A stretch of DNA of 64,000 nucleotides, taken from positions 1-64,000 of the forward strand of contig JAOADJ010000025.1 of the NCBI GenBank assembly GCA_026417375.1. The letters run 5' to 3'. Both the position numbers and the translations under genes were made by a program. Under the pieces are notes generated by a model. The model did no database searches. It was not told the origin of the DNA and worked only from the letters and a program-made list of their open reading frames with translations. The stretch comes from Melioribacteraceae bacterium (GTDB lineage: Bacteria > Bacteroidota > Ignavibacteria > Ignavibacteriales > Melioribacteraceae). Shown here piece after piece: positions 49,098-49,303 of the stretch; the first letter of the stretch is position 1; every line of letters starts with the position of its first letter.

Positions 49098-49126
49098 TTG
49101 ACAAATGAAAAATCATCAATTATTTT
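49098..49126 (+). promoter_or_regulatory. Promoter of the met leader and metYX
   Basis: TTGACA (49098-49103), 17 bases, TATTTT (49121-49126): the same boxes and spacing as the groESL promoter. RNA would start near 49133, only about 12 bases before the leader ATG. Confidence 0.75.
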
Positions 49127-49144
49127 CGCAACAAAGATAAACAA

Positions 49145-49228
49145 ATGAAAAGAATTGATATAAATATCGCCCACATCATGATGATAAATATGATGATGTT
49201 ATTTTCGTTACGAACGAAGGGCGAATAG
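49145..49228 (+). CDS. Methionine-rich leader peptide
   Basis: 27-codon ORF from ATG at 49145 to TAG at 49228. Residues 12-18 are M-M-I-N-M-M-M, so five of seven codons are AUG (49178-49198), six Met in total. Only a weak Shine-Dalgarno sequence (AAAGA). It lies directly between the promoter and a terminator that precedes metY. The sequence C-terminal of the Met run (LFSLRTKGE) is encoded by the RNA segment that forms the antiterminator. Its function is inferred to be ribosome stalling when Met-tRNA is short. Too short and too specifically placed to be a normal gene. Confidence 0.8.
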   Translation: MKRIDINIAHIMMINMMMLFSLRTKGE

Positions 49229-49282
49229 CTATATATTTTTTTAATTAACCCAAAGCCCTTCAATTTGAAGGGCTTTTTTTTT
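49167..49282 (+). promoter_or_regulatory. Methionine attenuator (1:2, 2:3, 3:4 RNA structures) with terminator
   Basis: Segment 1 TCGCCC (49167-49172) pairs with segment 2 GGGCGA (49219-49224). Segment 2, read as GAAGGGC (49216-49222), also pairs with segment 3 GCCCTTC (49255-49261). Segment 3 pairs with segment 4 GAAGGGC (49267-49273) to form the terminator: stem AAAGCCCTTC / GAAGGGCTTT, 5-base loop, nine Ts (49274-49282). Segments 2 and 4 are identical over seven bases. Stalling at the Met codons would cover segment 1 and leave 2 free to pair with 3; reading to the stop covers 2 and frees 3:4. Pairings are seen in sequence; regulation is inferred. Confidence 0.8.
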
Positions 49283-49303
49283 GAACAAAATAAGGAGTAA
49301 TAT

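Follow-up and report, generated by a model that had tools for sequence, protein, structure and literature searches.

Leader-peptide attenuators control the trp, his, thr, leu, ilv, and phe operons in Proteobacteria and Actinobacteria, and the textbook regulators of methionine genes are SAM riboswitches, MetJ, and T-boxes, of which the Met T-box reads the charging of tRNA-Met. Leader-peptide attenuators of amino acid operons are named in PMC1262725, which also reports Cys-run leaders without terminators before the cys operons of Actinobacteria (Mycobacterium and its relatives) and no conserved structures upstream of the methionine operons of Actinobacteria. The mycobacterial Cys-run leaders are also attributed to Canestrari 2020, as cited in PMC13236596, and PMC2965389 describes exchanges of T-boxes or riboswitches for leader peptides. 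In the literature searched, which covers the field in part, no methionine leader-peptide attenuator was found described. The leader preceding metY and metX (metYX) in the present study shares with the trp-type attenuators a short ORF rich in codons for the end product, competing RNA segments, and an intrinsic terminator, but differs from them in that the amino acid is Met or Met and Cys, that the host belongs to Ignavibacteria, and that two leaders in tandem, or a SAM-I riboswitch after the leader, are often found. The mycobacterial leaders likewise consist of a Cys-run small ORF upstream of cysteine genes but lack a terminator, whereas the Met/Cys leaders here have a segment 2 and an intrinsic terminator. 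The Met T-box differs in binding tRNA directly and having no translated leader, and the SAM-I riboswitch (S box, RF00162), which precedes metY orthologues in relatives, differs in that its aptamer senses SAM; the genome studied here has the leader instead. We read the metYX leader as a new version of the known attenuation principle, with methionine as the cognate amino acid.

The window, which is the whole stretch of 64,000 nucleotides that was analyzed, comes from a Melioribacteraceae genome of 2.83 Mb (99% complete), the MetY of which is, within the named collection, nearest to that of Stygiobacter electus (90% identical). A preliminary description, made from the letters of the window, had placed a promoter, a 27-codon ORF containing M-M-I-N-M-M-M, and a terminator in a row before metY, and all of these were present at the positions given there; the two genes were also confirmed as metY and metX by family models scoring above cut-off (Table 1). 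The divergent endonuclease III-like gene is the boundary of the intergenic region and lies outside the attenuator. The promoter-like site TTGACA-17-TATTTT (49098-49126) was the top-scoring one in its stretch, with 10 of 12 positions matched, in a scan whose total of sites was close to that in shuffled sequences (7 vs 5.6). The window gave no match to any Rfam family at the gathering score, and hence neither a SAM-I riboswitch nor a T-box match.

Table 1. Features of the metYX leader region and adjacent genes, in coordinates of the window.
Feature	Position	Strand	Basis
Endonuclease III-like gene, divergent	48330..49049	-	Family matches below cut-off
Putative promoter, TTGACA, 17-nt spacer, TATTTTCG	49098-49103 and 49121-49128	+	Promoter-like site scan
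Leader peptide ORF, 27 codons and stop, MKRIDINIAHIMMINMMMLFSLRTKGE	49145..49228	+	ORF reading; Met/Cys leaders at same position in relatives
Segment 1, TCGCCC, partner of GGGCGA in segment 2	49167..49172	+	Folding, swap test
Putative regulatory Met codons, ATG ATG ATA AAT ATG ATG ATG	49178..49198	+	Met/Cys density test
Segment 2, GAAGGGC, in the final leader codons	49216..49222 (within GAAGGGCGA, 49216-49224)	+	Stalled-state folding
Segments 3:4, intrinsic terminator, AAAGCCCTTCA-ATT-TGAAGGGCTTT	49252-49276, with T tail to 49281	+	-15.0 kcal/mol, 11 bp
AAGGAG, likely metY ribosome-binding site	49292..49297	+	Position
metY, O-acetylhomoserine aminocarboxypropyltransferase (O-acetylhomoserine sulfhydrylase)	49304..50608	+	TIGR01326, 692 bits, cut-off 495
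metX, homoserine O-acetyltransferase	50650..51753	+	NF001209, 449 bits, cut-off 331

The leader RNA folded better than 200 of 200 dinucleotide shuffles (z of -5.8). The complementarities 1:2, 2:3, and 3:4 that had been proposed for it were all found, the first and third as the pairs of the minimum-energy fold and the second in the modeled stalled state, where the 2:3 helix had 7 bp with the ribosome at each of the five internal Met codons (codons 12, 13, 16, 17, and 18). The stalled folds with 2:3 had energies of -11.4 to -13.8 kcal/mol, compared with -15.0 kcal/mol for the terminator, which is thus the more stable, so that antitermination would need the right timing.

The metYX leader is very probably a ribosome-mediated transcription attenuator that senses charged Met-tRNA. 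Transcription would start just after 49128, with a ribosome following on the 27-codon leader. When charged elongator Met-tRNA is scarce, we infer that the ribosome would stall at the Met codons with its front short of segment 2, which would leave segment 2 (GAAGGGC) free to pair with the nascent segment 3 (GCCCTTC), and the terminator would not form and metYX would be transcribed. When Met-tRNA is plentiful, the ribosome would reach the stop codon and cover segment 2, and when no ribosome is present, segment 1 would hold segment 2; in either case, with segment 2 occupied, 3:4 would pair and transcription would end about 150 nt from its start. In relatives, the same device would operate with Met, Met and Cys, or mostly Cys codons before genes of sulfur amino acids.

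To follow the leader across metY loci, we compiled 110 loci with their upstream regions (80 contigs and 30 whole-genome loci). Two loci (L051 and L102) were without an upstream region, and of the other 108, 2 short ones and 4 duplicates were removed, resulting in 102 rows (33 cyanobacterial and 69 non-cyanobacterial), for which up to 700 nt of upstream sequence was taken. A Met/Cys-dense small ORF, defined by 5 or more Met/Cys among 10 residues, was found upstream of metY at 27 of the 69 non-cyanobacterial loci, compared with a mean of 0.20 and a maximum of 2 in 30 dinucleotide shuffles, and at none of the 33 cyanobacterial loci. When the threshold was lowered to 4, the count was 34 of 69 compared with 2.4 in shuffles. 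The peptides of relatives contain stretches such as MMCMMLFITKG, MMWMMNSYNPKGD, and MAMCLCCMMMCISSRKDAA. A promoter layout of TTGAC-N-TANNTTTG, a pattern devised with the sequences already seen, was present upstream of 23 of 29 first leaders (mean 0.3 and maximum 3 in mononucleotide shuffles). Of the 11 rows in the clade of the window, 9 have two leader-terminator units in tandem, and the window and S. electus have one each. metX was found at 26 of 29 leader loci and not at the other three (L082, L087, and L089), the search at the last two covering a flank of 1.5 kb; at L006 (4622-6031), and by resemblance at L008 and L013, an aspartate kinase gene lies between metY and metX. Upstream of metH (best 30 loci of the search, 900 nt each), no convincing leader was found; the two small ORFs there that reached 4 Met/Cys in 10, of which one is 12 residues long and lies within an upstream ORF, were not leader-like.

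The geometry and pairing of the leaders were then evaluated in the 46 leaders with a terminator, for several of which the coordinates were chosen by eye. Segment 2 began 4-19 nt past the last codon of the Met/Cys run in 45 of them, mostly at or near the leader stop codon, the exception being the second leader of L006, in which the best duplex lies elsewhere than the model requires; the terminator began 19-42 nt past the leader stop. In a stalled-state model with the ribosome front 14 nt beyond the run codon and RNA synthesized through segment 3, a 2:3 helix of at least 6 bp formed at some stall codon in 44 of 46 leaders and at the last stall codon in 41, and was weakest in L092 and the first cysH leader of genome G005, with only 5 bp at any stall codon. 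With the stall set at mid-run, at least 7 bp formed in 40 of 46 leaders (mean 17.4 and maximum 24 in shuffles), and the mean energy was -13.9 kcal/mol compared with -8.0 kcal/mol in shuffles; the rows being related, the shuffle and permutation figures given here overstate certainty. Segment 2 also paired better with its own segment 3 than with swapped ones (mean of -12.1 vs -10.9 kcal/mol), 0 of 20,000 permutations reaching this value, which for related rows is no strict probability. Letters were changed on both sides of the helix in GGAGGG/CCCTCC (L012) and GAAGC/GCTTC (L113).

As for segment 1, its pairing with the leader's own segment 2 was better than with swapped ones: an energy as low was reached by 0 of 5,000 permutations over all 46 leaders, by 23 of 5,000 for the 12 first leaders of the window's clade, and, less markedly, by 179 of 5,000 for the 16 leaders that precede a riboswitch. 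This pairing was evident in the window and in the clade close to it and weak in many single leaders. The letters TCGCCC are shared by the nearest relatives and a small number of further leaders (L004, L118, L110, and L111), and in most other leaders different, often weaker letters pair with segment 2. The proposed anatomy recurred in many relatives, in which 2:3 and 3:4 are kept with altered letters and Met or Met and Cys codons stand shortly before segment 2. This comparison of sequences strongly supports the view that metYX is subject to attenuation.

A search that was free of any Met requirement was also carried out, the pattern consisting of the letters of segments 2-3-4 of metY leaders. 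Among 58 relatives, it gave 10 matches, all 10 at the end of a Met/Cys small ORF, and among 391 genomes of the class, 19 matches in 16 genomes, 18 of which close Met/Cys small ORFs, the 19th (L186) looking like chance; the reversed pattern gave none. Two of the sites (L182 and L188) are in one genome (G144), and the latter was recognized by letters identical to those of the second leader of L011. The genes behind the 18 leaders were metY (14), cysH (1), cysE (1), cysteine synthase (1), and one that we take to be sulfite-reductase-like from its motif; because the letters were drawn from metY leaders, the metY matches are partly expected, but the other four are not. The exact letters, in a letters-only test, were absent from 186 genomes of other classes, and the 9 matches of this wider search were all within the window's own family. 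In the window genome, no second leader was found with the run pattern ATGATGNNNATGATG and the other probes used. The run pattern gave 6 matches there, 4 in or over large ORFs and 2 (L126 and L127) in short frames, and is a weak probe, because the leader of the window itself, with two codons between its runs, escapes it.

These results bear on the possibility that the terminator is constitutive or controlled by a protein, the small ORF being incidental. The same genome does contain a hairpin with nearly identical letters in an ordinary-looking terminator that closes an apparent rRNA operon (L003 495-535, G000:C11; rRNA identified by eye), but the density of Met/Cys, the position of segment 2, and the 2:3 pairing all exceed their controls and 18 of 19 pattern matches precede sulfur genes, which makes an incidental ORF very improbable. 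We give an equally small chance to the idea that the operon is controlled through copper or zinc binding by a Met/Cys-rich peptide: runs like MMCMM and CMCMCM are reminiscent of metal ligands, but the genes behind the 18 leaders are those of sulfur amino acids, and ribosome position accounts for where the hairpins lie with respect to the codons.

The leaders of cysteine genes extended the comparison. Among the 58 relatives, cysH had 7 full matches, 6 with a Met/Cys leader, and for the seventh (L140) only about 290 nt of upstream sequence was present; the window genome had no cysH match. At cysH of G031 and G020, the leader is followed by a SAM-I riboswitch. The first cysH leader of G005, G011, G013, and G021 is followed by another ORF with a Cys run at its end; these second leaders gave no terminator within 110 nt and were left out of the set of 46. 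They are longer small ORFs with the Cys run at the stop (L130 1026-1166, L131 and L132 1014-1154, and L133 1052-1165), end in ..NNCMCCC, ..SMCCCC, or ..ACACCC, and are much like the mycobacterial Cys-run leaders. Among cysteine synthase loci, 2 of 30 had a Cys leader. The Met:Cys counts were 131:22 for the 22 metY leaders from the leader-only clade, 66:43 for the 16 metY leaders upstream of a SAM riboswitch, and 28:56 for the 12 leaders that belong to cysteine genes, the latter being richer in Cys than metY leaders (Mann-Whitney p=2e-6, on related rows). Both cysH leaders of G005, which are near copies of those of G011, as well as L113 and L082, were left out of this test, and for one cysE leader the sequence was taken from an inner start codon onward.

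This match between codon content and pathway also bears on what the ribosome would respond to. An arrest peptide, in which a ligand (SAM or methionine) causes a stall on the nascent Met-rich chain, would be expected to switch the same hairpins in an identical-looking manner, and an N-terminal stretch like K-N-I or N-L-N-I is common to many leaders. Arrest peptides are expected to keep their sequence, but the peptides here diverge widely around the Met/Cys run, the order and number of the run vary, and the leaders of cysteine genes have Cys in place of Met, which is what codon sensing would predict; we thus regard an arrest peptide as unlikely. The least probable alternative, to which we attach hardly any weight, is that the AUG runs respond to fMet-tRNA or to translation initiation and not to elongator Met-tRNA. 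Internal AUG runs could act as starts in the window and its clade, but many leaders mix Met with Cys or swap Cys in at the same place, which counts against initiation sensing because Cys codons cannot serve initiation.

The relation of the leaders to the SAM-I riboswitch was examined in a census of 63 metY loci, from which the 33 cyanobacterial and 6 proteobacterial rows were excluded and in which three loci with a score of 4 (L004, L028, and L099) were accepted as leaders by visual inspection. A leader only was found at 13 loci, a leader and SAM-I at 16, SAM-I only at 29, and neither at 5. In all 16 combined loci (L012, L014, L016, L028, L046, L091, L092, L097, L098, L099, and L106-L111), the leader-terminator unit lies upstream of the aptamer, which is followed by metY. 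On inspection, the five "neither" loci consisted of one whose Met/Cys leader (MCACWC), which has a terminator, reached a score of 4 (L063), one with a poly-Cys ORF followed by S-box-like letters giving no Rfam match at E 0.1 (L074), one with SAM-I at 41.9 bits against a cut-off of 44.4 (L077), one in which metY is inside an operon with SAM-I about 1.9 kb upstream (L009), and one in which the contig ends 263 nt upstream of metY (L049). A locus that retains the terminator and has lost the Met codons, which the preliminary description had named as speaking against it, was not found, the inspection by eye covering these five loci and part of the riboswitch-only ones. The Cys codons, the tandem leaders, the combination with a SAM riboswitch, and the cysteine genes go beyond what that description contained.

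In the MetY tree, one clade (95/90) unites 11 of the 13 leader-only rows, including the window, with L082 and L113 falling elsewhere; the label "both" requires at least 7 changes. A search of the window genome for SAM-I (RF00162), with stricter filters, gave no match. The presence of leader and SAM-I at one metY may represent two-input control. On a broader scale, it is probable that in Ignavibacteria a family of Met/Cys leaders runs much of sulfur amino acid synthesis; that in many genomes a leader in series before SAM-I provides two independent readings, of charged Met/Cys-tRNA and of SAM, with readthrough only when both are short; and that the window's lineage has lost the riboswitch and has leaders instead, often as a tandem pair. 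A leader and SAM-I in one RNA would be a natural circuit with two inputs, in which the supply of methionine for translation is told apart from that of the methyl donor. On the MetY tree, a single class shows leader-only, combined, and riboswitch-only loci, so that it can be tested directly how one RNA sensor takes the place of another.

Two further observations concern single loci. Upstream of the cysteine synthase gene at L206, there is a Cys-rich small ORF (MACCAGIGMSCCCTSCC); its terminator (GCCTCGTTCGACG..) is quite unlike the others in sequence, and this is possibly the same device in other letters. Furthermore, in a genome of the same genus as the window's, one SAM-I riboswitch is retained just before a MetY-like paralogue (G001:C19:116052-116167, with the gene at C19:116250), and the metY of that genome has two leaders (L118).
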